From positions 1 to 30,713 of IMG/VR virus record IMGVR_UViG_3300017989_000317: a stretch of DNA of 30,713 nt, one strand, 5' to 3'. This DNA is from a virus. This document shows, piece after piece, positions 1 to 3,727 of the stretch. The notes under the pieces are model-generated. The model was not told the DNA's origin. It saw only the letters and a list, made by a program, of their open reading frames with translations, and ran no database searches. Position numbers and translations under genes: made by a program. Positions within the stretch are counted from its first letter, which is position 1. Every line of letters begins with the position of its first letter.

Positions 1-12
1 ACACCAAGCATT

Positions 13-219
13 TCACTTGCTCGGTGCAGCCCCACTAACTGTTCCTGCATTTTCTAATTCGCTCACTTCATTCAATATGATCTCCTGCCAGTGGTCGTAG
101 ATTGCTTGAAATTCCTCTACGGTCGGAATTTCGTCCAATGGTTCGACATGCGGGAATACCCGCCCGTCTTCTAATTCAAATTCGGTCTTAGAGACACGGA
201 CAACCTTTGACATGTTCAT
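13..219 (-). CDS. Small hypothetical phage protein, 68 aa
   Basis: I do not recognise a family. The protein begins MNMSKVVRV, has a short basic/hydrophobic start (KVVRVSKTEFELEDGRVFPH) that reads like a small beta domain, then an acidic predicted helix rich in Glu, Trp and His, and ends with a low-complexity tail. An AAGGAG ribosome binding site lies about 6 nt before the first ATG (and 12 before the second), so the first is preferred. It is the last gene of the leftward accessory block, after the zinc-ribbon gene and the broken small gene. The 70 nt upstream contain a short inverted repeat (ATTAC/GTAAT, around 243-256) but no convincing promoter. Small proteins of this kind are common in early or accessory regions of large phages. 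Confidence 0.75.
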   Translation of the reverse strand: MNMSKVVRVSKTEFELEDGRVFPHVEPLDEIPTVEEFQAIYDHWQEIILNEVSELENAGTVSGAAPSK

Positions 220-292
220 ATTCTACTCCTTTATATCGTCAATTACAATAGTAATTCTTTAACTTTCTTTCAGATTTTTGTAGGTTTTGGGG

Positions 293-446
293 CTACTGTT
301 CACAACCCCTACAAACGATCAGGTCGAACTTCTTGTCGGTATCCCAATTAACCTTTCCATCTATCCAATCTGGTCCGGTGACGTAGGGAGCAACCAACAA
401 TGGTAATCCCAATCCATATGCGATTGATTGAGATAACCTTCTTCAT
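293..446 (-). pseudogene. Small protein gene broken by a 4-nt tandem duplication
   Basis: An ATG at 446 overlaps the TGA of the zinc-ribbon gene (ATGA) and follows GGAG, a well-placed start. Read straight, it gives a 32-aa peptide ending at 348 with a chance lipobox-like IVGC. The sequence at 422-429 is a tandem AATC-AATC (minus strand). Removing one unit restores one open frame down to TAG at 293-295 and gives a 49-aa protein that starts MKKVISIAYGLGLPLLVAPY, continues through VTGPDWIDGK and ends LIVCRGCEQ with a CxxC pair. The downstream frame looks more like protein than the 32-aa frame does. Explanations are a frameshift mutation, slipped-strand phase variation, programmed frameshifting, a sequencing error, or a TTG start at 412. 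The family is not recognised. Confidence 0.45.
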
Positions 447-808
447 TGTTTCTTCTCCGCTCCACATTTGGGGCAAAGAGTTCCATCTTTACCCGTCCAT
501 TCGTGCTGACATTCAACACATTGCCAGCGGGCAATCTGGTCGTCACCTGTTATGTCGTAGACATTGTCCTTGGTGCCACAAGTTGGGCATGTGGAATCGC
601 TATAGACGGGCGGATCTGATTGCAAATCATCTGTTCTTGCCCACTCGTTTTTGCATCCAACGCACTTGAATTTTCTTTCGGGCTGGTGGATGCCATGAAG
701 TAGTTTGTGACCAAAGTAGAACAATCGGGGAATTGCCGTATCCGGCAATTCCCCTTTTTCTACGAGATCACACAATTTCAGCAATTCTTTACCCGCACTC
801 TTATGCAT
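443..808 (-). CDS. Double zinc-ribbon protein, 121 aa
   Basis: The C-terminal two thirds contain two four-cysteine zinc sites: C49/C52 with C74/C77 (KCVGC ... CPTCG) and C97/C100 with C112/C115 (QCVEC ... CPKCG). Both are rubredoxin-like knuckles as in many nucleic-acid or protein-binding ribbons. The N-terminal ~45 residues form a predicted helix (MHKSAGKELLKLCDLVEKG). I chose the ATG at 808 because it overlaps the TAA of a short upstream ORF (TAATG) and has AAGGTGG about 5 nt upstream. A longer reading from a GTG at 931 is open but has no ribosome site and lies over that ORF. The target is unknown; such phage ribbons may modulate transcription, but that is inference. The end overlaps the next small gene by ATGA. 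Confidence 0.75.
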   Translation of the reverse strand: MHKSAGKELLKLCDLVEKGELPDTAIPRLFYFGHKLLHGIHQPERKFKCVGCKNEWARTDDLQSDPPVYSDSTCPTCGTKDNVYDITGDDQIARWQCVECQHEWTGKDGTLCPKCGAEKKQ

Positions 809-915
809 TATTCCACCTTCGTTACTTTCCCGAAGATTGAGTTGAATCCGATGGTTTCCAATCTGAAATCGTTTGCCGCCCATTTTTTGCTGGATACTTT
901 GAACCAGATGGACAT
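808..915 (-). CDS. 35-aa small protein coupled to the zinc-ribbon gene
   Basis: The ATG at 915 is preceded by AAAGGAAAG with 4-5 nt spacing, the best ribosome site in this stretch. The peptide begins MSIWFKVSSKKWAANDFR and ends GKVTKVE. Its TAA overlaps the ATG of the zinc-ribbon gene, and its last codons contain that gene's AAGGTGG site, a typical translational-coupling arrangement. It could be a real microprotein or a leader peptide controlling the downstream gene. It has no recognisable family and is basic and aromatic-rich. Promoter distance: the minus promoter at 1144-1171 lies about 230 nt upstream. Confidence 0.5.
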   Translation of the reverse strand: MSIWFKVSSKKWAANDFRLETIGFNSIFGKVTKVE

Positions 916-986
916 AGTGCTTTCCTTTCACTTTGCAGAAAACAATGTCGCAAAACTCGCTTCGCTCAACTCACTCTCAGTGCCAG

Positions 987-1007
987 CATTTTTGCGTTGC
1001 AAAAATG
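987..1007. repeat. Perfect 9-bp hairpin in the zinc-ribbon operon leader
   Basis: CATTTTTGC, a 3-nt loop, then GCAAAAATG form a perfect inverted repeat. It lies in the predicted 5' leader of the minus-strand zinc-ribbon operon, between its promoter (1144-1171) and the first start codon (915). There is no T-run after it on either strand beyond the stem itself, so it is more likely a leader structure or operator than a terminator. Confidence 0.5.
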
Positions 1008-1143
1008 TCATGGTTTTACGCCGCCGATTATAACCATTGGGGTACTATCCCCCACACACGCCCAAACGGGCTGGTCATTGTATTCAAAGGGCGAAAAATG
1101 CCCGGTAACGTCAATTCTGCGGATTTTTTTTTCGATTTCACGA

Positions 1144-1171
1144 ATTATAGCCTATTCTACGGGTTTGTAAA
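1144..1171 (-). promoter_or_regulatory. Sigma70-type promoter, leftward
   Basis: On the minus strand TTTACA (1171-1166), a 16-nt spacer and TATAAT (1149-1144) match the bacterial housekeeping consensus at 11 of 12 positions. It would start transcription near 1137 and drive the 35-aa ORF and zinc-ribbon gene after a leader of about 220 nt that includes the 987-1007 hairpin. It lies back to back with the rightward promoter at 1201-1228. Confidence 0.65.
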
Positions 1172-1200
1172 GTAACCCATAGGTGAGGAAGACATTCCGC

Positions 1201-1228
1201 TTGACAGTCAGGAAATTTACACTATAAT
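1201..1228 (+). promoter_or_regulatory. Perfect-consensus sigma70 promoter, rightward
   Basis: TTGACA at 1201-1206 and TATAAT at 1223-1228 match the consensus exactly with a 16-nt spacer. Transcription should begin near 1235. No plus-strand protein-coding gene follows: the next 150 nt are a structured, GC-richer stretch, and beyond it lie genes on the opposite strand. This suggests the product is an RNA. Confidence 0.7.
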
Positions 1229-1234
1229 CCGGTT

Positions 1235-1377
1235 TGCCAGTTTCGGTGGATGCTCTAGATGAGTCGAAACCCTGCGTAGGTATCGTCGGGGCCTGCAAGG
1301 ATGCCGGGGCCGTGTTCCGCATTGTTAGTCCAGCAATGCGTCGGTTGCAAACGCCCCGACCTCTTTAGGGTCGGGGT
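1235..1377 (+). ncRNA. Candidate structured noncoding RNA
   Basis: Downstream of the perfect promoter at 1201-1228 there is no open frame, but several complementary blocks are present. GTTTCG (1240-1245) pairs with CGAAAC (1265-1270), with an inner CTC/GAG stem. CGCATTG (1318-1324) pairs with CAATGCG (1334-1340). GTCGGGGC (1285-1292) is perfectly complementary to GCCCCGAC (1353-1360), closing a multibranched domain. CCCCGACC (1354-1361) can instead pair with GGTCGGGG (1369-1376), so the last two helices are mutually exclusive. The 3' hairpin lacks a good U-run, so the exact 3' end is uncertain. It ends just before the stop of the convergent 48-aa ORF. I recognise no known class: it is not a tRNA, and tmRNA was considered and rejected. 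A leader or riboswitch role is less likely because no plus-strand gene follows. Confidence 0.45.
1354..1376. terminator. GC-rich hairpin, possible convergent terminator
   Basis: CCCCGACC and GGTCGGGG form an 8-bp stem with a 7-nt loop. It sits 5 nt beyond the stop of the minus-strand 48-aa ORF and at the 3' end of the proposed plus-strand RNA, so it could end both transcripts. Neither side is followed by a T-tract (TAGTTC on plus, CGTTTGC on minus), so intrinsic termination is doubtful. Confidence 0.35.
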
Positions 1378-1380
1378 AGT

Positions 1381-1527
1381 TCACCTCTCAAGTACCACAA
1401 CTTCTTGAGTATCCATTTGGAATGTTTCCATTAGGAAGAGCAAGTCCCTTCCCATCTTTTCGGTTTCTTCTATCTTTTGTGCCAAGATACTCACGTTGGT
1501 TTCTTGTTCATTTTGCTTTTGAGGCAT
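1381..1527 (-). CDS. 48-aa charged small protein overlapping the DUF1003 gene
   Basis: The ATG at 1527 lies inside the last codons of the DUF1003 gene, in another frame, and the ORF runs to TGA at 1381-1383. The peptide (MPQKQNEQETNVSILAQKIE at the start, VVVLER at the end) is highly charged and looks like a single amphipathic helix with a leucine/methionine face. It has RNY-type codons, no low-complexity sequence and a weak GGAAA ribosome site. The 20-nt overlap and common direction suggest co-translation with the membrane protein. The function is unknown; a cytosolic partner of the membrane protein is possible but is only inferred from position. Confidence 0.55.
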   Translation of the reverse strand: MPQKQNEQETNVSILAQKIEETEKMGRDLLFLMETFQMDTQEVVVLER

Positions 1528-1948
1528 TTTTGTTTCCATTGGCTTCTTCATAAAGTTTTTGGCATGGCTGAACCATGCGTTCCATCATCTTTTCTATGTG
1601 TGCAATCGCTCGATAGGCATCATCGGCACGACGGCGATCTTTCTTTTCTGCCCTATTCGAAGCCATTAGGATAAGCGGGGTCGCAAAAGCCGCTTGGAAT
1701 GAAAGTACCAAATTCAATAGAATGAATGGATATTTATCGAATGCAAAGCTAAAGACATTGATGAGTATCCAACCCACCAATATTATTGATTGCATTATAA
1801 GGAACTTCCAACTCCCTAAAAAAGAGACAATCGTATCCGAAAGTTTATCAGCAAGAGTTGCTCTGCTGTTTCCGTGTTTCAATGCAGAAAGTTCCTTTAG
1901 GATTTTTTTCTGCGTATCGATAATGTCTTTGATTGCATTATTATCCAT
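1508..1948 (-). CDS. DUF1003-type small membrane protein, 146 aa
   Basis: The order of features matches the DUF1003 family. There is an N-terminal charged helix, then the family signature with GSWKFLIMQSIILVGWILIN (first membrane helix), the FDKYPFILLNLVLSFQAAFA block (second membrane helix) with the family-typical 'YPFILLNL.LS', then a SNRAEKKDRRRADD stretch and a C-terminal helix. The protein therefore has two transmembrane segments around residues 48-67 and 74-95, with cytosolic ends. The biochemical role of the family is unknown; in a phage it could act at the host membrane. The start at 1948 follows AGGAAG with ~8 nt spacing. The end overlaps the 48-aa ORF. A palindromic terminator (2026-2063) separates it from the protease gene. 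Confidence 0.8.
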   Translation of the reverse strand: MDNNAIKDIIDTQKKILKELSALKHGNSRATLADKLSDTIVSFLGSWKFLIMQSIILVGWILINVFSFAFDKYPFILLNLVLSFQAAFATPLILMASNRAEKKDRRRADDAYRAIAHIEKMMERMVQPCQKLYEEANGNKNASKAK

Positions 1949-2025
1949 AGGCTTGCTTCCTATGAATATCTATGCACAATCACTCAACAAGGACTCTTAC
2001 TTGGTGAATTTTTTAGCCGGAAAAC

Positions 2026-2063
2026 GGGAGGGTTCCCTTAACATATGTTAAGGGAACCCTCCC
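2026..2063 (-). terminator. 38-nt perfect palindrome, terminator of the protease gene
   Basis: GGGAGGGTTCCCTTAACAT is followed at once by its exact reverse complement, giving a 19-bp perfect inverted repeat. It starts 25 nt after the protease stop codon on the minus strand and is followed there by GTTTTCC, a short T-tract. It is well placed to isolate the protease transcript from the DUF1003 gene. A perfect palindrome this long could also extrude as a cruciform. Confidence 0.75.
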
Positions 2064-2088
2064 AGAAGAAAGGAACGATGCGATGTTG

Positions 2089-3009
2089 TTACTTTTTCAC
2101 ACGAAGTAGGGTCTTAAACTCTTTTTTATCACAGGGTTTATCTTTGTCTACTTTAGCATTGAAAGAGAAGCCACTATCTTCAATAGGCAAATTCTCTAAT
2201 TCCTTTTCTGTTGGTGGGGGTACATTGTCGTTCAGTGCCCAAAGTACACCGGCCTTTTCGGCCCAACGGGCCATTCTCCTGACTGGAACCATAAGATTGA
2301 AACCTTCTCCAGCCCCTCTTACAATCATGCCGACGTATGCACCATTTTTCAAATACACACCGCCTCCAGAAGATCCTGGGAAGCTCGTAGCGGTTGTTTG
2401 GTCGTATTCTTCTTTGCCATCGTCAAGAACACGTCCAACTTGAGAAACAATACCACTGGTCATTGAGTTAGATCCTAGTTGTCCTAGCAAACTACCAACA
2501 TGATACACGTCTGTTCCGATGCTAGGAATCTTCTTGTCTTGATAGAAAACAACGCTAGCTGACACAAAATTGGTCTTTCGGACTCGCAGAAGGGCTAAGT
2601 CCTCTTGCTCATTATAGCGAATAACCTCGGCCTGCATTTTGAGTTCTCCTACCTTACGACCGTTCTCTACAAGTTCCTTGATAACATCTGCGTCGTCAAA
2701 CTTAACAACTATTCGCTGTGTACCGGTCTTTGAATCAATCACCTTCTTTTCTGTTCGTAAACTGTCTACGACATGAGCCGCAGTCCAAACAAAATTGACC
2801 TTAACATCTTTTCCGTTTCTCTTCATGGTGATTGTCTTAATGACTCCTGAACCTTCACCCATGCCAGAATTGACCGTCACAGAAATGTCTTGTAGATACT
2901 GGGCAACGTCATCTTGGGCCGGAAGGGTTTCTTTCCATGTCGCCTCACCCGCGAATGAGGTGGTGCAGAGCAAAAGTGCGACAAGCATCGCAACAACAAT
3001 TTTTCGCAT
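2089..3009 (-). CDS. Secreted trypsin-like serine protease, 306 aa
   Basis: The N-terminus is a signal peptide: MRKIV, a hydrophobic core AMLVALLL, then TTSFA|GEA as a likely signal peptidase I site (after A20). The chymotrypsin-fold triad is visible: His79 in WTAAHVVD, Asp137 in EQEDLALLRV, and Ser214 in SFPGSSGGGVY. No PDZ domain follows; a short C-terminal tail with 'PPPTEKELENLP' ends the protein. I chose the ATG at 3009 over upstream in-frame codons because it begins the signal peptide and is preceded by a GGAGAGAGAAAG purine stretch. It would act outside the cytoplasm (periplasm or surface) of the infected cell. It ends before the 2026-2063 terminator. No clear promoter is seen in the 187 nt shared with the divergent Hsp20 gene. 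Signal-peptide-bearing HtrA-like proteases are unusual for phages. Confidence 0.85.
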   Translation of the reverse strand: MRKIVVAMLVALLLCTTSFAGEATWKETLPAQDDVAQYLQDISVTVNSGMGEGSGVIKTITMKRNGKDVKVNFVWTAAHVVDSLRTEKKVIDSKTGTQRIVVKFDDADVIKELVENGRKVGELKMQAEVIRYNEQEDLALLRVRKTNFVSASVVFYQDKKIPSIGTDVYHVGSLLGQLGSNSMTSGIVSQVGRVLDDGKEEYDQTTATSFPGSSGGGVYLKNGAYVGMIVRGAGEGFNLMVPVRRMARWAEKAGVLWALNDNVPPPTEKELENLPIEDSGFSFNAKVDKDKPCDKKEFKTLLRVKK

Positions 3010-3109
3010 AACTTTCTCTCTCCATTTCTTAATTTGTAAGTGCCCTAAGCACTGGTTGGTTTTCAAACCTATTAGAGAGAGCATTGTAAAAATTTTTGAC
3101 CGAAAAACT

Positions 3110-3122
3110 CTAAATAAGATAG
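3110..3122 (+). promoter_or_regulatory. Late-promoter-like motif upstream of Hsp20
   Basis: CTAAATAAGATAG lies 75 nt before the Hsp20 start. The same 12 nt (CTAAATAAGATA) recur upstream of the minus-strand operon at 7064-7051. The core resembles the T4-family late promoter TATAAATA. A TTGACC at 3097-3102 precedes it, so a sigma70-like reading is also possible. Confidence 0.4.
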
Positions 3123-3196
3123 AGTCCGTGCCACACAGGGCGGGCGAAAAACCATGCACACTTTCGTGGTGGTTAATACAAGCTAAGGAGAAAAAA

Positions 3197-3727
3197 GTGT
3201 TAAAGAAAAAACTATTGAAGGAAATGTCTCCCTTCACACGCGACGAATTTGGTTCCCCTTTTAATCTCGAAATTGACAAGTTGTTCAACAACTTTTTCGG
3301 GAAACAATTCTTTGACGGGGTCAAGAAATCGAATTTCCCAAAACTGGATGCTTACTACACGGAAATACATGATTTTGGGCCCAATAAGGGCACCAAAAAT
3401 AAGTTGGTAGTAAATTTCGCCGTTGCAGGAGTCGAAAAAGACGATCTTGTTGTCAGAATTGACAATGATGTGGATTGTTTTGGAATCGACCGTGGCAACA
3501 TTCTAGAAGTTTCCGGCAAGATTTCTGAGCAGTATTCTTCGAAGAATGAGAAACAATGCCCAATACGAGAATTGGTCTCGGGTTCCTTCAAAAGACAACT
3601 ACGACTCCCCCCAGAGGTGGTGCCTGAGCCCGAGGCAACACTCAAGGATGGCATCTTGAGTCTGGTTTTTACTGTTAAAGAACCAGAACCCGAAGAACCG
3701 AAAGGCAAACGGATAGAAATTAAGTAA
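3197..3727 (+). CDS. Hsp20 family small heat shock protein, 176 aa
   Basis: The protein has a ~60-residue N-terminal arm (FGSPFNLEIDKLFNNFFGKQ), then an alpha-crystallin domain. The sHSP features are FAVAGVEKDDLVVRIDND (the 'PG..kedi.v...' block), ILEVSGKI, SFKRQLRLPPEV, and ATLKDGILSLVF, the family's 'A.l.dGvL.i' signature. A C-terminal IEIK stands in for the I-x-I tail motif that mediates oligomer contacts. The GTG start at 3197 has AAGGAG 6 nt upstream. Small heat shock proteins bind unfolding proteins without ATP and are known in T4-like cyanophages, where they are proposed to help fold virion proteins. The gene is isolated: divergent from the protease and closed by the palindromic terminator at 3738-3771. 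Confidence 0.88.
   Translation: MLKKKLLKEMSPFTRDEFGSPFNLEIDKLFNNFFGKQFFDGVKKSNFPKLDAYYTEIHDFGPNKGTKNKLVVNFAVAGVEKDDLVVRIDNDVDCFGIDRGNILEVSGKISEQYSSKNEKQCPIRELVSGSFKRQLRLPPEVVPEPEATLKDGILSLVFTVKEPEPEEPKGKRIEIK

Follow-up and report, generated by a model that had tools for sequence, protein, structure and literature searches.

The locus considered here raises a double question, namely whether a promoter that points against all of its neighbouring genes drives the synthesis of a non-coding RNA in a phage, and to which class such an RNA would belong. The locus lies in the IMG/VR record IMGVR_UViG_3300017989_000317, the whole stretch of which (30,713 bases, referred to below as the window) was analysed, and which is probably a fragment. 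The structural proteins of the window have matches in huge phages; relatives of the portal protein occur on contigs of up to 381 kb, and the baseplate protein matches one from a 595-kb phage. An earlier note, made from the letters of the sequence, had described a perfect promoter followed by a structured transcript with no coding capacity, two competing helices and no resemblance to any known class. The feature is real, but new only in part: it is interpreted here, with moderate confidence, as an orphan small non-coding RNA gene of a huge tailed phage, the putative 3' end of which is the right-end hairpin of a transposon. The elements of the locus and its surrounding genes are the following.

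443-931, minus strand: gene for a zinc-ribbon protein.
1144-1171, minus strand: divergent promoter TTTACA-16-TATAAT, 11/12 positions.
1201-1228, plus strand: sigma-70-type promoter TTGACA-16-TATAAT, 12/12 positions; RNA start expected at about 1235.
1240-1270, plus strand: 5' hairpin GUUUCG/CGAAAC, ViennaRNA pair probability 0.67-0.73.
1270-1291, plus strand: conserved hairpin CCCUG-CG-[UAGGUAU]-CG-U-CGGGG, 18/22 identical to positions 1221-1242 of the related contig L003.
1308-1346, plus strand: central helix GGCCG/CGGUU, enclosing the hairpin CGCAUUGUU/AGCAAUGCG (1318-1340); found in the minimum free energy (MFE) and centroid folds.
1353-1384, plus strand: IS200/IS605 right-end hairpin with UUUA loop and TTCAC end, the putative 3' hairpin of the RNA; z = -4.64.
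1385-1404, plus strand: would-be guide flank CTCTCAAGTACCACAACTTC, directly after TTCAC and antisense to the small ORF.
1381-1551, minus strand: small ORF of 56 aa.
1508-1948, minus strand: DUF1003 gene.
2089-3009, minus strand: gene for a trypsin-like protease.

The feature sits in the intergenic gap 932-1380. As the earlier note had observed, it lies on the strand opposite to its neighbours, since all genes of the window up to position 3009 are on the minus strand. The claim that its promoter is perfect and the best in the window also holds: TTGACA (1201-1206) and TATAAT (1223-1228), separated by 16 nt, form the sole 12/12 site in the window, where 0.03 such sites are expected from first-order Markov controls. 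The only other site with at least 11/12 positions is the divergent promoter on the minus strand (1171-1144). Read as a sequence element, the promoter at 1201-1228 is real.

The conservation of this arrangement has been examined in L003 (IMGVR_UViG_3300018080_004698), a contig from a related huge phage whose portal protein is 72% identical to that of the window. In this contig, the small ORF, the DUF1003 gene (79-81%) and the trypsin-like protease gene (71-75%) are found in the same order and on the same strand. The corresponding gap contains a divergent minus-strand promoter, TTTACA-17-TATAAT, at the same place as that of the window, together with two tandem plus-strand units, each consisting of a promoter, an RNA and a terminator. 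Unit 1 starts with TTGACA-17-TATATT at 886, its terminator lies at 1061-1092 and its fold z is -5.05; this unit (886-1096) is not similar to the window RNA. Unit 2 starts with TTGACA-16-TACAAT at 1104; its terminator, at about 1315-1352, is a 14-bp stem with the tail UUUUU, and the fold z of the unit is -4.93. The promoter block of the window (1111-1228) matches the syntenic block of L003, with 0 of 5000 randomised controls being equally good, and the similarity between the window RNA body and that of unit 2 exceeds all 5000 randomised controls, which is not the case for unit 1. Both the promoter and the synteny are solid.

Within the RNA body, it is the 22-nt hairpin at 1270-1291 that has been conserved, and all of its 7 pairs are kept between the window and L003. 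Two of its four differences make up one compensatory pair change (C-G to A-U), another turns U-G into C-G, and the last one falls in the loop. The compensatory changes that the earlier note had asked for in homologous loci were therefore found for one hairpin and in one homologue, as one double and one single change between two sequences, while the other helices are not conserved; for example, the start of the L003 RNA also carries a 5' hairpin, but of different sequence. Such pair-preserving changes are supportive of a structured RNA, but not proof of it. In the isolated window RNA, the conserved hairpin has a pair probability of about 0.1, costs 1.7 kcal/mol if forced and does not belong to the MFE structure. 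Nevertheless, the divergent promoters and one hairpin are conserved in the syntenic gap of L003, and a conserved small-RNA gene, with its own promoter and a counterpart in a relative, is supported by them. The promoter-driven non-coding transcript of the earlier note is upheld to that extent, but not as regards its other helices or the switch.

Other relatives of the feature are scarce. When the neighbouring genes were used to search for homologous loci, only L003 spanned the locus, whereas L002 and L004 end before it and L048 is not syntenic. The phage and plasmid collections held no close DNA relatives, and the pattern of the 5' hairpin had no match in viral contigs. The motif of the conserved hairpin was found in viral contigs only in L003 and in one capsid-like gene; in GTDB genomes it gave 11 matches in 257 Gb, which is background, and all of these except two REP-like ones lie under open frames of more than 300 codons, on one of the two strands. 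A search for the RNA in about 1,170 bacterial genomes from three phyla yielded two short body matches of chance size and no right end.

The 3' end of the putative RNA, on the other hand, has many relatives. Its last 32 nt, GCCCCGACCTCTTTAGGGTCGGGGTAGTTCAC, are identical in 32/32 positions to a sequence of L061 and, with one more base, to one of L067; positions 1353-1384 match L065 and L077 in 31/32 positions, and several other copies likewise differ by one base. In L065, this right-end sequence comes directly after a TnpB gene coding for OrfB_IS605 and Cas12f1-like_TNB domains. In fact, the region past tnpB follows one common pattern in dozens of TnpB loci of phage contigs: a stem-1 hairpin with a GGRAY loop, scaffold motifs, a 3' stem that is often CTTTAG-looped, and then AGTTCA. 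The reRNA (omegaRNA) and right end of ISDra2 match this pattern (PMC8612924; PMC10097598), and the near-identical right-end copies located directly after tnpB constitute the 3' end of its guide RNA. Judged from its letters, the terminal hairpin of the window is an IS200/IS605 right end, an identity that is likewise solid: it has the subterminal hairpin expected for the right end of an IS200/IS605 or PATE element, and at 1353-1384 the 3' stem of an omegaRNA, with its UUUA loop and its UUCAC end before the guide. TnpB-linked omegaRNAs served to build two covariance models, R1 (20 sequences) and R2 (46 sequences). Under R2, a solo right-end palindrome of 39 nt (L062, 12939-12977), which stands alone in a 234-kb phage contig, scores 32.7 bits without an omegaRNA body; therefore, the hairpin can travel alone. 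In the window, the end of the hairpin coincides with the stop codon of the 56-aa ORF 1381-1551, and no canonical terminator is present at 1377, as the hairpin is followed by TAGTTCACC and not by a T run. The small-RNA unit of the window would thus end with a strong hairpin lacking a T run, and that of L003 with its 14-bp stem and UUUUU. The Rfam search proposed in the earlier note, run on the window and L003, gave no credible match either at the gathering threshold or at E 5 (riboswitches, tmRNA, HEARO, IS605-orfB and others included); the tRNA and tmRNA search found none, and no description matching the feature was met in the literature on phage small RNAs and IS605-type elements. The statement that the RNA belongs to no known class is consequently correct for its body, but not for its 3' end.

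Several alternative explanations deserve consideration. That the feature codes for a protein is very improbable. The claim that it contains no ORF was nearly right, since a 44-codon TTG ORF (1234-1368) does overlap the RNA and its frame is open; however, no ribosome-binding site is visible for it, its start coincides with the expected transcription start, and the frame of L003 stops a few codons past the conserved hairpin. In addition, 3/4 of the substitutions with respect to L003 keep the pairs of this hairpin, which favours an RNA over a protein. A bistable switch or riboswitch-like attenuator can scarcely be more probable. Overall, the fold of the RNA is unremarkable, contrary to what the earlier note led one to expect: 1235-1384 has an MFE of -56.8, its shuffled versions average -51.7 (z = -1.25), 25/200 of these fold equally well or better, and the terminal hairpin is the only exceptional fold. 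Both of the proposed competing helices are present in the sequence, a long-range one between 1285-1292 (GTCGGGGC) and 1353-1360 (GCCCCGAC) and a terminal one between 1354-1361 (CCCCGACC) and 1369-1376 (GGTCGGGG), and the former is the MFE structure in transcripts stopped at 1361-1368, and only in these. In the full-length RNA, the competition is thermodynamically one-sided, with a predicted pairing probability of about 0 for the long-range helix and of more than 0.99 for the terminal hairpin, and the long-range fold costs 6 kcal/mol if forced. Moreover, L003 does not preserve the partner sequences, no same-strand gene lies directly downstream and Rfam returned no riboswitch matches. The switch was rejected on energy and conservation.

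The main rival to the orphan small RNA, which may be considered possible but doubtful, is a diverged stand-alone TnpB omegaRNA. In this case, 1235-1384 would be a guide scaffold that lacks tnpB and possesses a promoter of its own, the guide would follow at 1385-1400, and TnpB would be encoded elsewhere in the phage or the host; in L003, the guide would have been lost and the scaffold turned into a decoy-like RNA. This explanation accounts for the 3' stem, UUUA loop and UUCAC end, which are identical to those of omegaRNAs, and it explains better than a small-RNA gene why the GGUAU loop of the conserved hairpin lies at -106 from the TTCAC end, within the range of the GGRAY loops of 11 TnpB-linked omegaRNAs (-101 to -117); its position fits that of a GGRAY stem-1 loop, but its sequence does not. 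Counted from this hairpin, the scaffold would be about as long as that of ISDra2, which has 116 nt, stem 1 at its 5' end, a UUUA tetraloop and a pseudoknot (PMC10097598). Related phages carry tnpB, and other phage contigs contain copies in which a well-scoring omegaRNA is present without tnpB. The window itself, however, scores 17.8 bits with R1 and 26.5 bits with R2, below the solo hairpin of L062 under the latter, and only its terminal hairpin aligns convincingly. By comparison, most tnpB-linked copies score from 40 to more than 100 bits, R1 gives 34-67 bits for many copies from outside its training set, some of them tnpB-less, and the syntenic RNA of L003 does not exceed 6.9 bits. The scaffold motifs GTGGAG, TAAGAC, TGAARC and GGRAY are all absent from the window RNA, which precludes a GAA/UUC pseudoknot of the ISDra2 type. 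No tnpB was found over the cut-off in the 30.7-kb window or the L003 contig, both of which are fragments, and the zinc-ribbon protein matches part of the TNB domain only, below the cut-off. Neither the window nor any fetched locus contains a second match to the flank 1385-1404. Full identity with an omegaRNA was rejected, as the body fails the covariance models and the whole scaffold is not matched. A bolder version, which seems unlikely, is that a guide-RNA scaffold devoid of tnpB has been domesticated in this lineage of huge phages and is retained there behind a strong host promoter. The copy of the window, which still ends in UUCAC, would carry the guide of a TnpB or Cas12-like protein supplied in trans, and the L003 copy, its guide end replaced by a terminator, would be a decoy tying up such proteins. 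Still less probable is an IS200/IS605 remnant or PATE-like insertion without RNA function, in which the promoter would serve nothing, or antisense transcription of 1381-1948. The right end at the 3' end, the overlap of the hairpin end with the stop codon of ORF 1381-1551 and the existence of PATE elements (PMC7290912) are consistent with such an insertion, but L003 shares the promoter and the conserved hairpin without having a right end at that place, and no left end has been identified upstream of 1201. Blastn of window positions 1-1450 against all fetched elements finds the right end only, and no left end with a matching hairpin beside a target motif.

The simplest account is that of a small-RNA gene with a replaced 3' hairpin, given that the promoter and the conserved hairpin are shared and the right end occurs in the window only. 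Orphan phage small RNAs transcribed by the host polymerase are known in principle. According to this account, the host-type sigma-70 promoter at 1201-1228, back to back with the divergent one, would start an RNA at about 1235 made up of the 5' hairpin, the conserved 22-nt hairpin with its 7-nt loop (YAGGUAU), the central helix and the 3' hairpin. The phage would thereby have the host polymerase synthesise a stable RNA. This RNA probably acts in trans by means of its constant hairpin, whose loop might be the active part, either in base pairing to a target RNA or in protein binding; the searches found no target or partner. In the window, a solo IS200/IS605 right end would have taken the place of the original 3' hairpin and, as a preformed 3' end, may protect the RNA or help termination, whereas L003 would keep a normal, long-stem, U-tailed terminator. 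Against the small-RNA gene stand its single homologue, a conserved hairpin that is not the MFE structure, the ordinary overall fold, a terminal hairpin without a U-tract and the placement of the hairpin loop at the position of stem-1 loops in omegaRNAs. Provided that the RNA is made, this lineage of huge phages would possess an orphan small RNA conserved beside a DUF1003-trypsin pair and without an Rfam match. The case also suggests that a transposon right end, usually the 3' part of a guide RNA, became the 3' hairpin of another transcript.

Compared with known systems, the feature shares with orphan phage small RNAs its intergenic location, a strong sigma-70 promoter, a structured nature and a length within 150-220 nt; it differs from them in that it matches no Rfam family at gathering score and is a candidate RNA without a known target. 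With the IS200/IS605 right end and the 3' end of the TnpB reRNA it has in common the 32 nt identical to right ends of phage contigs, the UUUA loop, the TTCAC end and the 31/32 match to a copy that follows tnpB; unlike the reRNA, its body lacks the scaffold motifs and the pseudoknot loop, it has its own sigma-70 promoter, and no tnpB is present in 30.7 kb. The PATE or stand-alone omegaRNA elements of phages (the L064 group, L074 and L067) resemble it in their right end, phage context and lack of an adjoining tnpB, but they score 36-78 bits as omegaRNAs, which the window does not, and a left end, not identified in the window, can be recognised in the L064 group and in L074. Such tnpB-less guide-RNA copies turned up in several phage contigs and may serve a phage or host TnpB in trans.

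Some additional observations concern these elements. L054, L064, L069, L070 and L072 are near-identical elements of about 350 bp (IMGVR contigs 3300022848_000033, 3300022848_000011 and 3300023240_000066), each with a left end, an omegaRNA (60-78 bits) and a right end, and with differing 3' flanks (guides). Two of them are located in contig 3300022848_000033 (35 kb), which has no tnpB over the cut-off. On the minus strand of the window, ATCGGCGGCGTAAAACC (932-1040) resembles by eye the left end of the L064 element, ATCGGCGGCGAGAAAACC; blastn gave no report of this. In L173, a 118-kb relative of the window phage, positions 1501-1650 contain a tnpB-less omegaRNA with a tandem duplication of its 3' part. 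The L061 contig comes from the same sample as L002, carries a tnpB and a separate omegaRNA copy, and codes at 850-1035 for a homologue (54%) of the 68-aa ORF at 13-219 of the window. Within the window, the plus strand has at 727-754 a 12-bp hairpin followed by TTTTT, which is terminator-like although it lies in the coding frame of the zinc-ribbon ORF, and a perfect 38-nt palindrome, GGGAGGGTTCCCTTAACATATGTTAAGGGAACCCTCCC (2026-2063), possibly a bidirectional terminator, separates the protease and DUF1003 genes. Finally, the genes for DUF1003, the trypsin-like protease and a small heat-shock protein (HSP20) adjoin one another in this phage, at 1508-3727.
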